Below, piece after piece: positions 148 to 17,899 of a stretch of DNA of 34,719 nucleotides. The notes beneath the pieces were generated by a model that made no database searches, was not told the DNA's origin, and was given only the letters and a program-made list of their open reading frames with translations. The stretch covers positions 1 through 34,719 of the forward strand of contig RCNO01000027.1 of assembly GCA_003731685.1 (NCBI GenBank), in the 5' to 3' direction. Made by a program: the position numbers and the translations under genes. This stretch comes from Bacteroidetes/Chlorobi group bacterium MS-B_bin-24 (lineage in GTDB: Bacteria; Bacteroidota; Ignavibacteria; Kapaibacteriales; UBA2268). Within the stretch, counting starts at the first letter, position 1, and each line of letters begins with the position of its first letter.

Positions 148-1579
148 CTATCCTTTGATTACTGCAAGTGGTTTTACTTTCGCAACTGGTTTCGTAATTG
201 ATAAATTGTTTACAACATTTACAACTGTTTCGACATCTTTATAGGGCTGTTGGAGCTTCTTCGGATAAAGAAGATATACTTGGGGTTTTTACAATTATCC
301 CTTGGCTTTCTAACTCTCCAAGCAAAGTTTTTGAATTGATTTCCTTCTTAGCTTGAGAGCGACTCATTGTTCTGCCAGCCCCATGGCAGGAGCTACCGAA
401 AGATAAATTCAAAGAATTAGGTTGGGCAATCAAAACAAACGATGATGTCCCCATTGAACCCGGCACCAATACTGGTTGACCAATTGAAGCATAAATACCT
501 TTGAGCGATGTAGAAGGGAAAGCTCGGGTTGCACCTTTTCGATGGACTATAAGTGTCCTTTTTTTGTTTCCGACTTTATGCTTTTCAATTTTAGCGATAT
601 TGTGTGCTAAATCGTAAAGCAAGGCAAAATGCAGAGGTTTGATTTTTTTTGTGAATCGCAGGAATATCTCTTTGATTTTATTTGCAATGAGTTGACGATT
701 GACAAAAGCAAAATTAGCAGCAGCATTCATAGCGTTATAATAGCTTTTGCCTTCGTTCGAGGAAAATGGGGCACAAGCAAGTCCCCGGTCAACTAATTCG
801 ATTCCGTATTTTTTTGAAGCGGACTGAAAATCTTTAACATAATCGGCACAAATTTGGTGTCCGAAGCCTCTTGAACCTGTGTGTATCCAAATAACAACTT
901 GGTCTTTGAACAATCCGAGTTTCTCAGCAATTTCTGGTTCGAAAATATTGCTTACATAACCGATTTCAATGAAATGATTGCCGGAGCCAAGGCTTCCGAT
1001 TTCGGTTATGCCTCGTTCGAATGCTCTTTCGGATATGCCTGCAAGATTATCGACAGGCAATTTGCCTTTATCTTCGATGCATTCAATGTCCGATTCAGTA
1101 GCAAAACCATTTTCCAAAGCCCAATTAGCCCCTTCGAAAAGTAATTTTTCGAATTCTTTATTGGATAGTTTAATTAGAGCTCCTTTGCCTGTGCCAAGAG
1201 GAATGATTGAATAAATCTCGTTTACAATTTCCTTTAAGTGTTTTTGAATTTCTTTCTTCTTCCAATTTGTTATGTTTAATCTAATACCACAATTAATATC
1301 ATAACCAACTCCACCGGGGGAAATAATACCATCTTCAACATCAAAAGCAGCAACACCACCGATTGGAAAACCATAGCCTTGATGAATATCGGGCATAGCA
1401 AGAGAAAACCCAAAAATTCCGGGTAAAGTAGCAACATTGACTAATTGTTTTAAGCTGTCGTCATTTTGAATCAAAGGAATTTGTTTCGGGTCGGCGAAGA
1501 AGCGAGCCGAAACTTTCATTAATTTATTACTTTCCGGAGAAATTTCGTAAATAAACTCATCTATTTTATTTATTTCCAT
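148..1579 (-). CDS. rtcB: RNA-splicing ligase RtcB, apparent 3' frameshift
   Basis: RtcB joins RNA 2',3'-cyclic phosphate or 3'-phosphate ends to 5'-OH ends using GTP and Mn2+. Visible family signatures are the metal-site segment GGVGYDINCGIRL with Asp94 and Cys97, GSGNHFIEI, HTGSRGFGHQ, VHRKGATRAFP, and the guanylylated His399 in CHGAGRTMSR. The uninterrupted frame stops at TAA 239-241 after 446 residues, ending EEAPTAL. Removing one base of the run at 244-246 continues the frame as AYKDVETVVNVV and on to IKG, stopping at TAG 148-150. That gives 476 residues, close to the 481 of the Pyrococcus enzyme. The lost part holds Tyr446 and Lys475, equivalent to guanine-pocket residues as I recall them from that structure. 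The gene lies 18 bp downstream of archease. The frameshift may be a real mutation, a recoding site or a sequencing error. Confidence 0.93.
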
Positions 1580-1597: not shown

Positions 1598-1993
1598 TTA
1601 AATATCAAACACAATTTTAGTTCGATATAAGTGATTGTATTTAACTATCTTTAAATTATAAAAAGTAGCAGATTTTATATAAATTTCTCTATTTTTGAAT
1701 TTACCAAAATAATTCCTTGAAAATAAATGAATTGAATCTATTCTTATTTCAGAATTAATCAAGTAAAATCCTAAATCCATTTTATAAATTAAAAAATTAA
1801 GAAAATCAACTAATAAAGTTTCTGAATCAACATCACTAACTTCATAGTTTTCCGAGTAAATTTTCTTTGATTTTAAAGGAGATATTCCGGATATTGCCAT
1901 TAAACCTAATGCTGAATCATAAAATAATCCTTCGAGTGTTGTCGATTCAACATATATTGCCTTATCTGCTGTATGTGGAATTTCGACAAACAT
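1598..1993 (-). CDS. Archease, RtcB activator
   Basis: Archease is a small acidic protein that speeds RtcB guanylylation and turnover. The 131-residue product begins MFVEIPHTADKAIYVES, with the typical N-terminal HTAD metal-site motif, has the family's ALGLM stretch near residue 30, and ends VFDI, the characteristic archease C-terminus. Length is close to the usual 140. The stop is 18 bp before rtcB and the start is 1 bp after the aminotransferase stop, so the three genes probably share a transcript. Conservation of the archease-rtcB pair argues that RNA ligation or repair is, or recently was, functional here. Family assignment is secure from motifs and neighbour. Confidence 0.92.
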   Translation of the reverse strand: MFVEIPHTADKAIYVESTTLEGLFYDSALGLMAISGISPLKSKKIYSENYEVSDVDSETLLVDFLNFLIYKMDLGFYLINSEIRIDSIHLFSRNYFGKFKNREIYIKSATFYNLKIVKYNHLYRTKIVFDI

Positions 1994-1994
1994 C

Positions 1995-3272
1995 TTAGGA
2001 TTTTACATATTCAGCGATAGCATCAGCAAATCTATCTAAATCGCTTTCGGAGGTGTATATGTGGGGTGTAATCCGAACCCCGTGTATGTTTTCCCAATTT
2101 ATTGCAACCGTAAATATCTTGTGTTTTGTGAAAAGGTAGTCTGATATTTCCTCTGGTTTTTTTCCATCAATGGAAAATATGCCCAAACCACAAGAGAATC
2201 CCTTTTTCAACGGAGTTAAAATTTTAACCGATGGTAAACGCTTTAGTTTTTCGACCCAATAATTTTTTAAATTTCTCAATCTTTCTTCTTTCCTTGCTAT
2301 TCCTATTAGGTCATTAAAATTCAATGCATCTGCAATAGCCATTTCCGCAGGGAATGAACGAGTCCCTAATGACTCAAATTTTCGAATGTCTTCGCTATAA
2401 GGATTGTCGTTTGGGAAAAGTGGTGGTATTTGTTTTATTAACTCCTTGCGTATATAAAGCATTCCTGTTCCGAATGGGGCACACAGCCACTTATGCAAAC
2501 TCGTAGCAAAAAAATCGCAGCCAAGTTCTGGTATTTTGAAATCAATGTGTGCGAAAGTATGAGCACCATCGACCAAAACATAAATGCCTCTTCTGCGAGC
2601 TTCTTCTGCAATTTCTTTAATAGGAAGGATTTGTCCATTCCAATTTATCATATGAGTTAAGTTTACAACCCTTGTTCGGGAAGTAAATTTTGAAACATAA
2701 GATTGAACAAGATAGTCTTTATCTTCGGAGGGTAAAGTTAAATTTACCCAAACTAATTTGATTTTGTCACGGAGTTCACGAAAATTCCAAGCATTAATCA
2801 CGTTAGGATAGTCCTGTTTGGCAAGAACAACTTCATCGCCCTCTTTCAAATCCAAGCCATAGATGATTGTGTCCATCCCTTCGGTGGTGTTCCTGTTGAT
2901 AGCAATTTCTTCAGGTGAGCATCCTGCCAGCTGGGCTAATTTTTTTCGGATTGGTTCTCGTCCTTGGTCGAGAATTCGCCACATAAAGTAAGCTGGTCCT
3001 TCATTCGAGATTTGATTATATCGAACAAAAGCGTCCTGAACGCTTTTTGGCTGGGGGCTAACACCACCATTGTTTAGGTTTAAAATTGAAGGGGAGACGG
3101 TGAAAGATTGTTTAACCCAGAACCAAAACTCATTGCTACTCTGGGAGTTAATCAAATTTTGTTCAATTGCTTCAGAGTTCATCATTGCTGTTTCTTTTGC
3201 TAACGACTTGATTGGACGAAGCAGCCCAATCAAGGAGAGAGAAGTTAGAATTGTTCGACGCGACATTCCCAT
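1995..3272 (-). CDS. Tat-exported class V aminotransferase
   Basis: This is a PLP-dependent fold-type I enzyme of the class V group (isopenicillin-N epimerase/cysteine desulfurase-like). The DGAHTFAHIDF segment supplies the PLP-binding Asp and His, and SLHKWLCAPFGTG holds the Schiff-base lysine. The frame stays open up to 3362, but the start at 3272 (MGMSRRTILTSLSLIGLL; an alternative ATG is at 3266) is preferred. It leaves a twin-arginine signal (SRRTIL followed by a hydrophobic stretch) at the N-terminus and avoids overlap with the divergent glycosyltransferase. Length is then 425 residues. The substrate is unknown: no desulfurase active-site Cys loop is obvious, so amino-acid epimerase, lyase or aminotransferase activity in the periplasm are all possible. 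It heads the archease-rtcB transcript. Confidence 0.85.
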   Translation of the reverse strand: MGMSRRTILTSLSLIGLLRPIKSLAKETAMMNSEAIEQNLINSQSSNEFWFWVKQSFTVSPSILNLNNGGVSPQPKSVQDAFVRYNQISNEGPAYFMWRILDQGREPIRKKLAQLAGCSPEEIAINRNTTEGMDTIIYGLDLKEGDEVVLAKQDYPNVINAWNFRELRDKIKLVWVNLTLPSEDKDYLVQSYVSKFTSRTRVVNLTHMINWNGQILPIKEIAEEARRRGIYVLVDGAHTFAHIDFKIPELGCDFFATSLHKWLCAPFGTGMLYIRKELIKQIPPLFPNDNPYSEDIRKFESLGTRSFPAEMAIADALNFNDLIGIARKEERLRNLKNYWVEKLKRLPSVKILTPLKKGFSCGLGIFSIDGKKPEEISDYLFTKHKIFTVAINWENIHGVRITPHIYTSESDLDRFADAIAEYVKS

Positions 3273-3296
3273 TTTGAATATCCAAATGTTAGAATT

Positions 3297-3304
3297 CAAA
3301 TTTA
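3297..3304 (-). promoter_or_regulatory. Candidate promoter of aminotransferase-archease-rtcB
   Basis: On the minus strand TAAATTTG fits the Bacteroidota -7 element TAnnTTTG. A TTTG at 3326-3329 lies 21 nt upstream, close to the -33 element. Predicted transcription start is near 3290, 18 nt before the ATG. Confidence 0.45.
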
Positions 3305-3310
3305 ATAAAT

Positions 3311-3318
3311 TAATTTTG
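3311..3318 (+). promoter_or_regulatory. Candidate promoter of GT2 gene
   Basis: TAATTTTG matches TAnnTTTG and would start RNA near 3325, 13 nt before the ATG. It is only 6 bp from the opposite-facing element at 3297-3304, so the two promoters could not easily be occupied at once. Confidence 0.4.
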
Positions 3319-3337
3319 CATTTAACAAATATGAAAA

Positions 3338-4285
3338 ATGATTGACTTATTAATAATTTCATACAATGGCAAAGATTTTACAAGCCAAGCAATAGAAAGT
3401 GCCTTAGCAAACACTGTTCAACCCCGAAGTATTATTGTTTTGGACAACAATTCCACTGATGGTAGCGTAGAATATCTCTCCTCGAAGTTCAAAGATATTC
3501 AAATCATTGCGAACAAAGAGAATCTTAGTTATGGTGGAGGAGCGAATTTAGGCATTAAATTTTGTAATTCTGATTTTGTGGTTATTTCGAACAATGATGT
3601 AATTTTCCCCCCGAACTTTTTCTCGAAATTGCTTGAGGCGATAGATTTGCTTGATGGCAAATTTGGAATTTTGGGTCCTCTACAAATCTACCCAAATGGC
3701 AAGCCGCAGTTTTCTTTTGGTAGTTTGCACAGTGTCTTATCTGCATTGTTAGATGTTACTTTTCTTCACAGCTTATTTTTAATTTTGGTAAGAATGTTCT
3801 ATAAAGTTTTTCACTACCCCCGGTTTTTGAAGGTTGGCTATGTCGATGGAGCAGTTATTTGCGTTAATCGAAAAGCTTTTGAATCTATTGGTGGGTTTGA
3901 TGAAAATTTTCGCCTTTACTCCGAAGATACAGACCTTTGTCTAAGAATGAAGAAAAAAGGCTATAATGTCCTTGTTGATATGGGCAACACCGTTGTGCAC
4001 TATCGTGGCCAAGGAAAGAATGACAGGATAGGAGTAACACCTCAACGGATTGAGCAATTTGTTAATGCTCGGGTGTTGTATTGCCAAAAGAACTTGTCAT
4101 CGCTTTCGGCAAAGCTTTACTTTTTACTCGAAAGTATTTTTTATCTGGAATTGTTAGTGGTTAACTTGATTAGAAGAATCTTTGGTAAAAGCAACAAAGA
4201 TACAATTAAGTTTTGTCTTACATCATCAAAATTATTTTTCATAAAATTTTTAGGAAACAAAAAATTTAAGCAAAAAAGTTATTAG
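3338..4285 (+). CDS. GT2 family glycosyltransferase
   Basis: This inverting GT-A transferase uses a nucleotide sugar and probably acts in surface polysaccharide assembly at the cytoplasmic face of the membrane. It shows the N-terminal IISYNGKDFTSQAIESAL segment, VLDNNSTDGS, the metal-binding region SNNDVIFP near residue 88, and the GGFDENFRLYSEDTDLCLR acceptor/catalytic segment near 185-205, as in rhamnosyltransferase-like GT2 enzymes. A hydrophobic stretch near residues 125-150 and another near 265-285 suggest membrane association. The length of 315 is normal. The start at 3338 is the only ATG giving the full Rossmann strand. It stands alone, with no polysaccharide cluster around it, so donor and acceptor cannot be told. 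Confidence 0.9.
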   Translation: MIDLLIISYNGKDFTSQAIESALANTVQPRSIIVLDNNSTDGSVEYLSSKFKDIQIIANKENLSYGGGANLGIKFCNSDFVVISNNDVIFPPNFFSKLLEAIDLLDGKFGILGPLQIYPNGKPQFSFGSLHSVLSALLDVTFLHSLFLILVRMFYKVFHYPRFLKVGYVDGAVICVNRKAFESIGGFDENFRLYSEDTDLCLRMKKKGYNVLVDMGNTVVHYRGQGKNDRIGVTPQRIEQFVNARVLYCQKNLSSLSAKLYFLLESIFYLELLVVNLIRRIFGKSNKDTIKFCLTSSKLFFIKFLGNKKFKQKSY

Positions 4286-9878: not shown

Positions 9879-12110
9879 ATGACAAAAATTTCAATTCAGG
9901 AAGACATAGAAGAACAGAGCCCTATATTGAAAAATTTAAACCCTGTCCAGCGAGAAGCTGTTAAGGCAATCGAGGGACCATCATTGATTGTTGCTGGAGC
10001 GGGAAGTGGCAAAACAAGAGTTCTGACACATAAAATTGCTTATCTTATTGACAATGGAGTGCCCCCCCAAAACATACTTGCTTTGACCTTCACGAATAAA
10101 GCAGCGAATGTAATGAAGGAACGAATAGCCACGCTGGTAAATCCAGAAGCCTCGAAAAGAATTTGGGCTGGAACTTTCCACTCTATGTTTGCAAGGATTC
10201 TACGATTAGAAGCTTCGGCTTTGGGCTATACTCCGAACTTTTCAATTTACGATGCTGACGATTCAATAAGTGTAATTAAAAGAATTTTGCAGAGTTATTC
10301 CGTGTCGAATAATCGTTTGAGTCCCGATAATGTTCATCACATAATTTCGCTGGCAAAAAACAAAGTAATTTCCCCTGAAGAATTTGCTCGAAATGCTTCT
10401 ACGCCCATTGAACGGGAGATTGCTAACTTTTACAAAGAATATCAAGACTACCTACATCAAAATAATGCAATGGATTTTGATGACCTCTTGGTCAATACAT
10501 ACGAACTTTTTAATTCCTTCCCTGAAATTTTAGAAAAATATCAGGAGCGATTTCTGTTTATTCTTGTTGATGAATACCAAGATACAAACAGAGTGCAATA
10601 CCTTGTATTGAGGAAGCTTTCTTCAAAATACAAAAACATAACAGTTGTCGGCGATGATGCCCAAAGTATTTACAAATGGAGAGGAGCAGACATTAGAAAT
10701 ATATTGGATTTTCAAAAGGATTTTCCCGAAGCCAAAATATTTCGGTTGGAGCAAAATTATCGGTCGACAAAGAATATTCTTTCCGCTGCCGACAGCGTGA
10801 TTAAGTTTAATCGCAAGCAAATTGAAAAGAAGCTTTGGACGGAGAATCCCGAAGGCGATTTGTTTGAACTTTATGCTTGTGAAACCGAAAAGGACGAAGC
10901 AAATTTAGTGGTGAAGAAAATTAAGGAACTTGTTTCGGAAAGCGATTATTCGCTGGGCGATATTGCTGTATTTTACAGAACAAATGCTCAATCTCTGGAA
11001 TTTGAAAATGCTTTCCGTCGGGAAAATATAAATTACATTGTTGTTGGCGGAATGTCGTTCTATAAACGCAAGGAAATTAAGGATGTTTTGGCATATCTTA
11101 AATTATTAACTAATCCAAATGATAACGAAGCATTTTTGAGAATAATCAATGAGCCACCGAGAGGCATTGGGAAGGTGACTCTTTCTCATTTATTAAACTA
11201 TTCTCGACAGAACAAAGTTGCACTTTTTGAAGTTTTAGAAAAAATTGATGAAGTTCAAAATATTCAATCTCGTGCCGAAGCAATTTTAAAAGAGCTTAGG
11301 AATTGGGTTTTGGAAACACAAGAAAAATTAAAGAAAAAAGAACGAGTTGGAGAAATTATCATCGAATACATACGACAATCGGGATTAATTCAAATGTATG
11401 AGGAAATTGGAACCGAAGATGCTTACGATAGGATAGAAAATATCGAGACACTTTTAAGCGATATTTATGACTTTCTACGAACAAATGAAAACTTTGGCAT
11501 TGAAGACTATTTGCAACAAATAAGCTTAATATCGGATATAGACGAAAAAAATCTTTCCACCGAACAAGTCAAGTTAATGACACTGCATTCCGCAAAAGGT
11601 TTGGAATTTCCCGTAGTTTTTATTGTTGGGCTCGAGCAGGGTTTGTTTCCTCTGATAAGGTTTCGCAGTAATACTGATGACGAAGAAGAAGAAGAACGAA
11701 GGCTTTTCTATGTTGGTTTAACTCGAGCAAAAGAAAAAGTCATTTTAACATATTGCAAGAACAGACAAAGATTTGGAGTTGATTCTTATCAAGTGCCATC
11801 GAAATTTTTGAGTGAAATCGACAAGAAATATTTAGTTGTTTATGACAAAGAGCTTCAAACAAAATCAAGTTATTACCACAAAAGTTATACAGGAACACCG
11901 AAATCTGAATCGGCAGTTGAATACAATGAATATGACCAGACCGACGATGGAGTATTGAGAATAGGGGATAAGGTGGTGCATCCATTTTTTGGCATTGGCA
12001 GGGTGGAACACCTTGAAGGAAGTGGAAACTACGCACAAGCACTTGTGAACTTTGAATCCGTAGGTCGTAAAAGACTTATGTTGCAATATGCCAAATTGAG
12101 AAAAATTTAA
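9879..12110 (+). CDS. pcrA: UvrD/PcrA-type superfamily 1 DNA helicase
   Basis: A 3'-5' helicase for nucleotide-excision repair, replication restart and removal of RecA or stalled RNA polymerase. Motifs in order: Q motif NPVQREAV, Walker A GAGSGKTRVL near residue 45, DEYQDTN (motif II) near 230, GDDAQSIYKWRGAD (III), LEQNYRST (IV), MTLHSAKGLEFPVVF (V) near 565, and VGLTRAKEK (VI) near 610. The last 50 residues (GDKVVHPFFGIGRVE onward) form the Tudor-like domain with which PcrA/UvrD bind RNA polymerase. Length 743 is typical. The ATG at 9879 is chosen over an upstream in-frame TTG at 9873. Any TAnnTTTG promoter at 9868-9875 would start RNA inside the gene, so the true promoter is elsewhere. Confidence 0.95.
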   Translation: MTKISIQEDIEEQSPILKNLNPVQREAVKAIEGPSLIVAGAGSGKTRVLTHKIAYLIDNGVPPQNILALTFTNKAANVMKERIATLVNPEASKRIWAGTFHSMFARILRLEASALGYTPNFSIYDADDSISVIKRILQSYSVSNNRLSPDNVHHIISLAKNKVISPEEFARNASTPIEREIANFYKEYQDYLHQNNAMDFDDLLVNTYELFNSFPEILEKYQERFLFILVDEYQDTNRVQYLVLRKLSSKYKNITVVGDDAQSIYKWRGADIRNILDFQKDFPEAKIFRLEQNYRSTKNILSAADSVIKFNRKQIEKKLWTENPEGDLFELYACETEKDEANLVVKKIKELVSESDYSLGDIAVFYRTNAQSLEFENAFRRENINYIVVGGMSFYKRKEIKDVLAYLKLLTNPNDNEAFLRIINEPPRGIGKVTLSHLLNYSRQNKVALFEVLEKIDEVQNIQSRAEAILKELRNWVLETQEKLKKKERVGEIIIEYIRQSGLIQMYEEIGTEDAYDRIENIETLLSDIYDFLRTNENFGIEDYLQQISLISDIDEKNLSTEQVKLMTLHSAKGLEFPVVFIVGLEQGLFPLIRFRSNTDDEEEEERRLFYVGLTRAKEKVILTYCKNRQRFGVDSYQVPSKFLSEIDKKYLVVYDKELQTKSSYYHKSYTGTPKSESAVEYNEYDQTDDGVLRIGDKVVHPFFGIGRVEHLEGSGNYAQALVNFESVGRKRLMLQYAKLRKI

Positions 12111-15394: not shown

Positions 15395-16423
15395 TTAAAT
15401 TAAATCTTGAGAAATTGGGGCAATGTCCTCTACATTTCGGTAAACGTGGTTCGATTGTGGTTTGTTATCACGCCTATCTATTGCTTTTAAAGCTGACGAA
15501 TAAATTTCTTTCCAAGTTAGCCCAAACTTTTCTAACAATTCCTCTGGTTCGCCACTTTCGCCGAAGCGGTCGGGAACGCCAACAAATTCGATTGGGACGG
15601 GGTAGTTTTTTGCAAGGACTTCTGCAACAGCGCCACCAAGTCCTCCGTGAACTTGATGCTCTTCGGCTGTTACAACTGCACCGCAAGTTCTTGCAGCCTC
15701 GACAATAGTTTCAACGTCAATTGGTTTAAGTGTGTGACTGTTGATGACCATAGCCGAAATTCCTCGTCTTTTCCAAAGCTCATCGGCAGCGAGGAGTGAT
15801 TGCCATACCATAATGCCACAGGCAATGATGGCTATATCTTTGCCTTGACGAAAGATTTCAGCTTTGCCAATTTTAAAAGGGGTCTCTTCGGTGGTAAAGT
15901 AGGGAACTGGCGCTCTGCCAAATCGAACAAAAGCAGGACCATAAAATTCAGCAACTGCAAGAGTAGCCTTCTTGGTCTCGAGGTAATCACAAGGAACAAC
16001 AAGTTTCATATTTGGTAAGGTTCTTAGCAAAGAAAGTTCTTCGAGAGACTGATGAGTTGCACCGTCTGGTCCAACTGTTATTCCAGAATGTCCCCCACCA
16101 ATTTTAACATTAGCATTATTATAACAAACTGAAATTCGTAATTGGTCGGCATTCCTAAAAGCAGAAAAAACACTATATGTAGCAAAGAAGGGAATTTTAC
16201 CCGATAAAGCCATTCCAACTGCAATGGTTGTAGCGTTTTGTTCTGCAATTCCGATTGAAAAAAATCGGTCTGGAAACTTCTCTTTAAAGAAAGAGGTTAA
16301 TACTGAACCAGTTACATCTGCTCCAAGAACAACGACATTCGGGTATTTCTCGCCAAGCTCGACCAAAGCTTCGCCAAATCCATAGCGTGTTGCTTTTTTG
16401 CCAAGTAATTTAAATTCGTTCAT
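15395..16423 (-). CDS. Transketolase, C-terminal half (split enzyme)
   Basis: A 342-residue subunit with the pyrimidine-binding and C-terminal domains of a two-gene transketolase. GIAEQNATTIAVGMA carries the catalytic Glu that activates the TPP ring, and GPDGATHQSLEEL contains conserved substrate-site residues. With the N-half it would move two-carbon units between sugar phosphates in the non-oxidative pentose phosphate pathway. Split transketolases are usual in archaea and many anaerobes. Its ATG overlaps the stop of the lipoprotein gene (ATGA, 16420-16423), implying coupled translation. After about residue 315 a polar tail extends past the conserved domain. Confidence 0.93.
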   Translation of the reverse strand: MNEFKLLGKKATRYGFGEALVELGEKYPNVVVLGADVTGSVLTSFFKEKFPDRFFSIGIAEQNATTIAVGMALSGKIPFFATYSVFSAFRNADQLRISVCYNNANVKIGGGHSGITVGPDGATHQSLEELSLLRTLPNMKLVVPCDYLETKKATLAVAEFYGPAFVRFGRAPVPYFTTEETPFKIGKAEIFRQGKDIAIIACGIMVWQSLLAADELWKRRGISAMVINSHTLKPIDVETIVEAARTCGAVVTAEEHQVHGGLGGAVAEVLAKNYPVPIEFVGVPDRFGESGEPEELLEKFGLTWKEIYSSALKAIDRRDNKPQSNHVYRNVEDIAPISQDLI

Positions 16424-17004
16424 ACTTTTACCTTGATAAGTTTCTCAAGCACAGAGAAGTTTAAATTTTGCACCAAATCCATAGCTGTTTCGCGAAAATT
16501 TGGATAATTTATCGCTTCGATTTTAATATGAAAGCGTCCGTAGTAAACTAAATCCAATTTGCTTCCATTCGAAAGTTCATCACTCGAAAAAACCCCAGCA
16601 CCATTTTTGATGAAGTAAACATCCTTTCCCGGTTTAAGTTCATATAAATTTTTTAAATGCTCAGGCAGATTAGAAAAACTAAGGTAATCGTAAATGTATA
16701 TAACAACTAAACCTAACGATGAAACATATTCACCTGAAGCAGTATTTACTGTGAGAGAAGAGTATTTAATCTTTCCAGTATTAACTTTATCGAGCCTTAA
16801 ATCTCCAAAGCTTTCCGGGAAAATTTTTTTTAAAATGTCCGAAGAAATTGGTTCTGTGCTAATATTTTGGTAATTCGATACTATTGGTTTACTTTCAAAT
16901 GAAATAGTCGTATCGGCAACTTGCTGCTGATTATCGGCTTTTTCTTTTTTTGAGCAGCCAGAAAACATTAACAATGTCAATATTGCAAAAAGAATCGCTT
17001 TCAT
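16420..17004 (-). CDS. Lipoprotein between transketolase halves
   Basis: A 194-residue lipoprotein beginning MKAILFAILTLLMFSGC, a signal peptide with lipobox FSGC, followed by a Ser/Lys/Glu/Gln linker and a mixed alpha-beta domain of about 150 residues that I do not recognise. The start at 17004 overlaps the stop of the transketolase N-half in ATGA, and its own stop overlaps the start of the C-half in ATGA, so all three reading frames are translationally coupled. A periplasmic or membrane-bound product between two cytoplasmic enzyme subunits is odd. Nothing in it hints at sugar binding. Existence is well supported, function is not. Confidence 0.85.
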   Translation of the reverse strand: MKAILFAILTLLMFSGCSKKEKADNQQQVADTTISFESKPIVSNYQNISTEPISSDILKKIFPESFGDLRLDKVNTGKIKYSSLTVNTASGEYVSSLGLVVIYIYDYLSFSNLPEHLKNLYELKPGKDVYFIKNGAGVFSSDELSNGSKLDLVYYGRFHIKIEAINYPNFRETAMDLVQNLNFSVLEKLIKVKV

Positions 17005-17870
17005 TCCAATTCCTTCAATGCTATTAAAGCTTGTTCTTCGGTTGGTGGGATACCATGCCATTCGTATTTGTCGAACATAAAGGAAATGGGGTATCCCATC
17101 TTCGTTTTTGCAATAATCACAGTTGGCCTGCCAATTTTCTGTTCGTGATTCTGTATAAATTTTTTAAAAGAATCATATATTTCAGAATAATTATGTCCAT
17201 CGATTGTCAGAACCTCAAAATTAAAAGCTTCGAATTTTTTTTCGATGGGGTAAATGCTCATCACATCTCTAACTCTGCCGTCAATCTGACAATCATTGTT
17301 GTCGACAATCCAGCAGAGGTTGTCGAGTTTGTAATTTCCTGCTGCCATTGCGGCTTCCCAAGTGGAACCTTCTTGGAGTTCTCCATCGCCAGTAAGTGCA
17401 AATACTCTGCGGTCATTTTTATCCAGGTACTTGTCGCTCAAAGCCATTCCAACTGCAATAGAAATGCCTTGACCAAGCGAACCAGCAGCGGTTTCGATTC
17501 CCGGCAAACCAACGTCGAGTGCCGGATGTCCTTGCAATCTTGAACCTAATTTCCGAAGTGTTTTAAGTTCTTCAACAGGAAAAAAGCCAGCTCGGGCAAG
17601 CGTAGCGTAGAGAATTGGACAAATATGTCCTGCACTCAGAACAAATCTATCTCTTTGTTCCCATTTTGGGTTCTGAGGGTCGTAGCGCATTATTCCACCA
17701 AAGAAAAGCACTGCAAATAAATCGGCTGTCCCCAAAGAACCACCCGAATGCCCTGAACCAGCAAGAGCAAGACTTTTGATAACATCCTTGCGCAATTCTT
17801 TGGCAATTGGCTTAAATTCCCAGCTTTCTCTCGGTTTGTTCTCGAATGTTACTTTTTCAAATTCAAACAT
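17001..17870 (-). CDS. Transketolase, N-terminal half (split enzyme)
   Basis: A 289-residue TPP-binding subunit. LAGSGHSGGSLGTADL near residue 35-50 is the diphosphate-binding entry, and GDGELQEGSTWEAA followed by VDNNDCQIDG makes the GDG-to-NN thiamine diphosphate motif. The ATG at 17870 is chosen over an upstream in-frame TTG at 17891. It is the first gene of a five-gene minus-strand operon (this gene, lipoprotein, C-half, Memo-AMMECR1, lpxK) and is divergent from flhF. Confidence 0.94.
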   Translation of the reverse strand: MFEFEKVTFENKPRESWEFKPIAKELRKDVIKSLALAGSGHSGGSLGTADLFAVLFFGGIMRYDPQNPKWEQRDRFVLSAGHICPILYATLARAGFFPVEELKTLRKLGSRLQGHPALDVGLPGIETAAGSLGQGISIAVGMALSDKYLDKNDRRVFALTGDGELQEGSTWEAAMAAGNYKLDNLCWIVDNNDCQIDGRVRDVMSIYPIEKKFEAFNFEVLTIDGHNYSEIYDSFKKFIQNHEQKIGRPTVIIAKTKMGYPISFMFDKYEWHGIPPTEEQALIALKELE

Positions 17871-17899
17871 AATTTCAACAACTTCAAGCAATAAAAAAG

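Follow-up and report, generated by a model that had tools for sequence, protein, structure and literature searches.

Contig C27 of the MS-B_bin-24 draft genome carries near its start an rtcB gene whose C-terminus lies in a different reading frame from the rest of the protein, which raises the question of whether the break is an error in the deposited sequence, a mutation that inactivates the RNA ligase, or a site at which ribosomes change frame as they do in prfB. The original prediction had put forward all three options. The window analyzed here is the entire contig (34,719 nucleotides), one of 109 in a 2.6 Mb assembly that is 98.8% complete and 4.7% contaminated, and the break sits 244 bases from its base 1. 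The features concerned are listed in Table 1.

Table 1. Coordinates of rtcB, its frame break and its neighbors in the window.
Feature	Position	Strand	Basis
Convergent reading-frame end REEKVLLDLKKLDEEIIHSLDFKSKNL, cut by the contig end	2–85	+	Sequence reading
Expected rtcB stop TAG	148–150	-	Sequence reading
RtcB C-terminus, 31 codons in the +1 frame (YKDV...IKG)	151–243	-	Pfam RtcB 392–426, below cut-off when taken alone
Premature TAA stop of rtcB	239–241	-	Sequence reading
rtcB main frame, ending EEAPTAL-TAA	239–1579	-	PF01139, 494.8 bits, profile 1–395 of 426
Three-base C run (GGG on the + strand), point where the rtcB frames diverge	244–246	-	Relatives' consensus EEAPxAYKDV
Archease, full length, upstream of rtcB	1598–1993	-	PF01951, 63.1 bits, profile 2–136 of 136
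Presumed aminotransferase-like gene, upstream of archease	1995–3362	-	ORF; similar frame at the same place in four congeneric species (by eye)

Reading of the open frames on the minus strand confirmed the split at the coordinates originally predicted. The main frame runs for 446 codons, the last two before the premature stop being GCC (245–247) and CTA (242–244), and its score lay above the PF01139 cut-off of 27 bits. It contains both the GYDINCG and CHGAGR motifs, which we take to be the metal and guanylate center of the enzyme and which are also seen when the sister protein is aligned with Pyrococcus RtcB. The equivalent of Pyrococcus Lys480 and the C-terminal segment that holds it and ends in KG are absent from the main frame and occur solely in the +1 frame, which encodes YKDVETVVNVVNNLSITKPVAKVKPLAVIKG (31 residues, YKDVETVV...PLAVIKG) up to the expected TAG. 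As a candidate for a tail ORF with a start of its own, this frame is open over 46 codons and contains no ATG. The 445 main-frame codons and the 31 tail codons add up to 476 residues, a total that fits the family as had been claimed: the RtcBs of the four congeneric species have 476, 476, 476, and 482 residues when the first ATG in the open frame is taken as the start. Taken alone, the tail aligned with positions 392–426 of Pfam RtcB (E 1.4e-4; 22.1 bits against a curated cut-off of 27), and 28 of its 31 residues were identical to those of the tail in the sister genome G002; judged from these alignments, its match to the RtcB C-terminus is not a chance one. NCBIfam did not discriminate between the window RtcB and the intact sister RtcB, neither of which rose over any cut-off.

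The age of the break was approached through codon positions. Between the tail and that of G002, differences at positions 1, 2, and 3 numbered 4/1/14 (P = 3.8e-4 for at least 14 of 19 differences at the third position, with an expectation of one third), and the other three congeners gave 7/3/19, 8/2/13, and 5/1/17. Because the differences concentrate at third codon positions, we infer that translation of the tail went on during most of the period after the split. Its coding constraint persists, and therefore the break is either recent or not real.

Comparison with relatives showed the break in this genome alone. The intact sister RtcB, used as a query against 54 family genomes (one per species), matched 24 of them, our genome being matched in two frames. 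All 23 of the others, comprising 14 close matches with the four congeneric species among them and nine distant RtcB-like ones, are free of internal stops up to position 475 or 476 of the 476. The remaining 30 genomes gave no match; among the 42 of the 54 with completeness of 90% or more and contamination of 5% or less, 22 gave none. We inspected the DNA at the 19 closest of the 29 relatives' loci (L004–L022 of L004–L032) and could read EE[AS]PxAYK[DN]V in one frame at 18 of these; the exact motif is missing at the nineteenth (L013), but the genome carrying it (G009) is among the 14 intact close matches. No possible ancestor of a programmed shift site was present in any relative examined. In a search for further genomes of the same species, the contigs of other genomes yielded four loci, one from a congener and three from distant relatives, and a plasmid search gave no match.

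These comparisons bear directly on programmed recoding, in which ribosomes would shift +1 at CTA-TAA and so produce full-length RtcB. The resemblance to prfB consists of a Leu codon followed by a stop, with continuation in the +1 frame, and the genome's own prfB (L173, G000:C30) carries the canonical +1 site GGAGG-TAT-CTT-TGA-C, so that the ribosomes of this organism are presumably able to shift. PMC12421855 describes three elements of the prfB site: an SD-like element, the slippery sequence CTTT, and a TGA stop with C as the next base. The rtcB site reads ACA-GCC-CTA-TAA-A; both CTTT and TGA-C are absent from it, and its TAA is followed by A. By eye, no G-rich SD-like element was seen in the 40 bases before CTA; their sole purine run, GAAGAAG, codes for the conserved EE and stops 11 bases short of CTA, against a spacing of three bases between GGAGG and the slippery sequence in the genome's own prfB. 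Re-pairing on TAT by a tRNA that has read CTA would also be poor. Conservation is missing as well: the GeneTack study (PMC3711429) calls a frameshift programmed only when its site is conserved across a cluster of at least five genes, and it regards confirmed singletons as probable products of sequencing error or indel mutation. The rtcB break resembles these singletons in being confirmed by homology in one genome only and differs from them in nothing essential, apart from lying near the end of a draft contig. The prfB-like shift is thus unsupported, since the relatives are intact and the prfB elements are absent at rtcB while present in the genome's own prfB; the comparison with sister genomes, proposed at the outset as a check, spoke against it, and we consider it very improbable. 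The rtcB break is an ordinary isolated frame break and not programmed recoding. A phase-variable gene was likewise rejected, as the break lies at a run of only three bases, with no long homopolymer there and no tandem repeat scoring at least 50 between positions 1 and 1568.

The residues lost from the main frame are relevant to what a truncated protein could do. By hand count in the sister-protein alignment, Tyr446 and Lys475 correspond to residues 451 and 480 of Pyrococcus RtcB (1uc2/4dwq), and Tyr446 presumably lines the guanine pocket. The original prediction had assigned both residues to this pocket and was right for Lys475, whose equivalent Lys480 contacts guanine (PMC3973293, in part). 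The same part of that paper reports that Pyrococcus RtcB K480A is inactive alone and that Archease rescues it, whereupon it ligates with ATP; Tyr451 is not among the variants listed there, and no paper naming Tyr451 was among the matches listed. All nine distinct PDB sequences that were matched align through the last residue of the sister RtcB, eight of them to their own last residue too.

The neighborhood of rtcB is preserved. All four congeneric species have an archease-like frame upstream of rtcB, and they share the gene order (both by eye). In having archease directly upstream, the locus resembles the RtcB/Archease operon as far as PMC3973293 describes it, and it differs in that rtcB is broken 31 codons before its end, alone among the 24 matching family genomes. 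The intact archease, full length by Pfam, had been taken to argue against a long-standing loss of RtcB, which is a fair reading. A profile search at E 0.001 found no second RtcB in the genome, and for positions 1–420 no non-self match longer than 40 bases, and hence no second copy or overlapping contig with another allele, was found in the genome among the 40 of 67 candidates that were scored. Elsewhere in the window (15395–17891, minus strand), the two halves of what we take, from ORF translations, to be a transketolase are separate ORFs, with a presumably lipoprotein-like ORF of 213 amino acids between them that overlaps both.

To see how the break relates to the quality of the assembly, we surveyed ambiguous bases and frame breaks. 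The 132,000 bp lying no more than 2 kb from the 66 contig ends sampled held 108 ambiguous bases, as against 48 in 756,719 bp of other stretches, which makes the sampled ends about 13 times richer in them than other stretches. Of the 183 Ns, 174 lay in long ORFs, and with the frame of the longest ORF as reference 102 of these fell at third codon positions, which suggests strain polymorphism, and the consensus near many contig ends seems to mix strains. Clusters of single ambiguous bases were seen at some ends (C9:102–1974, C13:174–1147, and C18:120–981). The window contains no N, and 46 of the 66 sampled ends are free of N within 2 kb. Homopolymers were examined for the truncation that marks long-read errors: runs of three to eight bases were about as frequent as in the sister genome, and A/T runs of at least nine were about half as frequent (13 vs 25 per Mb), figures that carry no weight either way. 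The contig-end survey covered 40 further stretches, of which 21 gave a match, and its 47 ORF matches (45 kb) contained no frame break, a sample with low power to reveal an excess at contig ends.

In a general survey, 1104 ORFs taken mechanically from G002 were set against 835 kb of our genome and gave 233 good matches (256 kb), while the reverse survey showed no frame break in 232; antisense ORFs, which were taken along with the others, inflate both denominators. The general survey yielded five candidates, namely rtcB twice (once through an antisense ORF), a presumably CBS-domain-like gene, and two others, and the convincing breaks among the 233 matches were two, those of rtcB and the CBS-like gene. 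The two others, one a weak match (30–38%) at the same CBS-like place and one in a poorly conserved stretch, were dropped as unconvincing once the frames at both places had been read. The CBS-like gene (G000:C11:11919–12439; L130) is split by a frameshift at about position 12,000, not at a contig end; it forms one open frame in G002 and G003 (in the latter resting on an open frame of 179 amino acids), and no close match was found in G001 or G004. With two convincing breaks per 233 ORF matches, a generally indel-ridden assembly was rejected. Genomes carry some usual load of young pseudogenes, and this number is compatible both with such a load and with occasional errors.

We hold it highly probable that the rtcB break is an isolated indel, be it an error or minor variant or a real recent mutation. 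As an error or variant, it would consist of one surplus base in the run of three C where rtcB codon 445 joins its successor, introduced as a consensus error or taken from a minor strain at a contig end, the draft genome having come from a mixed population; the living cells would then produce an ordinary RtcB of 476 residues working with the adjacent archease. The intact gene in the 23 other matching family genomes, the coding constraint on the tail against all four congeners, the full-length archease in a shared gene order, the position of the break near a contig end in an assembly whose sampled ends are rich in Ns, and the second isolated break, in a gene intact in two congeners, all favor such an origin. 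It is weakened by the lack of any N in the window and in most sampled ends, by the unbroken ORF matches at contig ends, by the low number of breaks in the assembly at large, and by the failure to see another allele among the scored candidates; short reads, moreover, rarely produce an insertion of a single base in a run as short as three. Weighing these points, we infer, with a probability only just better than even, that the extra base arose in the assembly or its consensus or belongs to a minor strain, an origin slightly favored over a real null mutation. Of the three options first put forward, error is therefore possible and slightly preferred and inactivation possible as a recent mutation, while the prfB-like shift did not hold.

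A real recent frameshift, to which we give somewhat less than an even chance, would end RtcB at residue 446, remove the Lys480 equivalent, and leave the protein inactive or nearly so beside an archease not yet eroded. The base was deposited without an ambiguity mark, the similar break in the CBS-like gene may mean that the lineage carries fresh pseudogenes, and many family members, to judge from the 30 genomes with no match, lack such an RtcB. By analogy, the inactivity of Pyrococcus K480A alone (PMC3973293, in part) would also be in line with a null allele. The coding constraint retained by main frame and tail alike, the intact gene in the four congeneric species, and the full-length archease speak against it. 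That the truncation is instead functional, with an RtcB that would act without its C-terminus only in the presence of Archease and perhaps with a loosened choice of nucleotide, is less probable still than recoding. The rescue of K480A by Archease and its ligation with ATP, in the part of PMC3973293 cited above, would offer a parallel, and the archease of the window is adjacent and full length. An Archease-dependent ligase of this kind is conceivable but unlikely, because the loss of 31 residues is a larger insult than the K480A replacement of one side chain; the continuing constraint on the discarded tail counts against it too, as does the fact that all nine PDB sequences align up to the very end of the sister RtcB.

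No report of a frameshifted RtcB was found in the literature searched, within the library and terms used, and no papers on this genus were among the matches listed. The matter comes down to one base of a draft genome that alters the annotation of one RNA-repair gene, with little consequence as things stand. The case is a caution that a Leu codon with a stop behind it can mimic a prfB site when the frame fits, and relatives, together with the genome's own prfB as a comparison, tell such a mimic from a real site. A truncation that was both real and functional would test how far Archease replaces the guanine pocket of RtcB, and the truncated protein would be an Archease-dependent ligase with loosened nucleotide choice, a parallel in nature to the K480A rescue seen in the laboratory.
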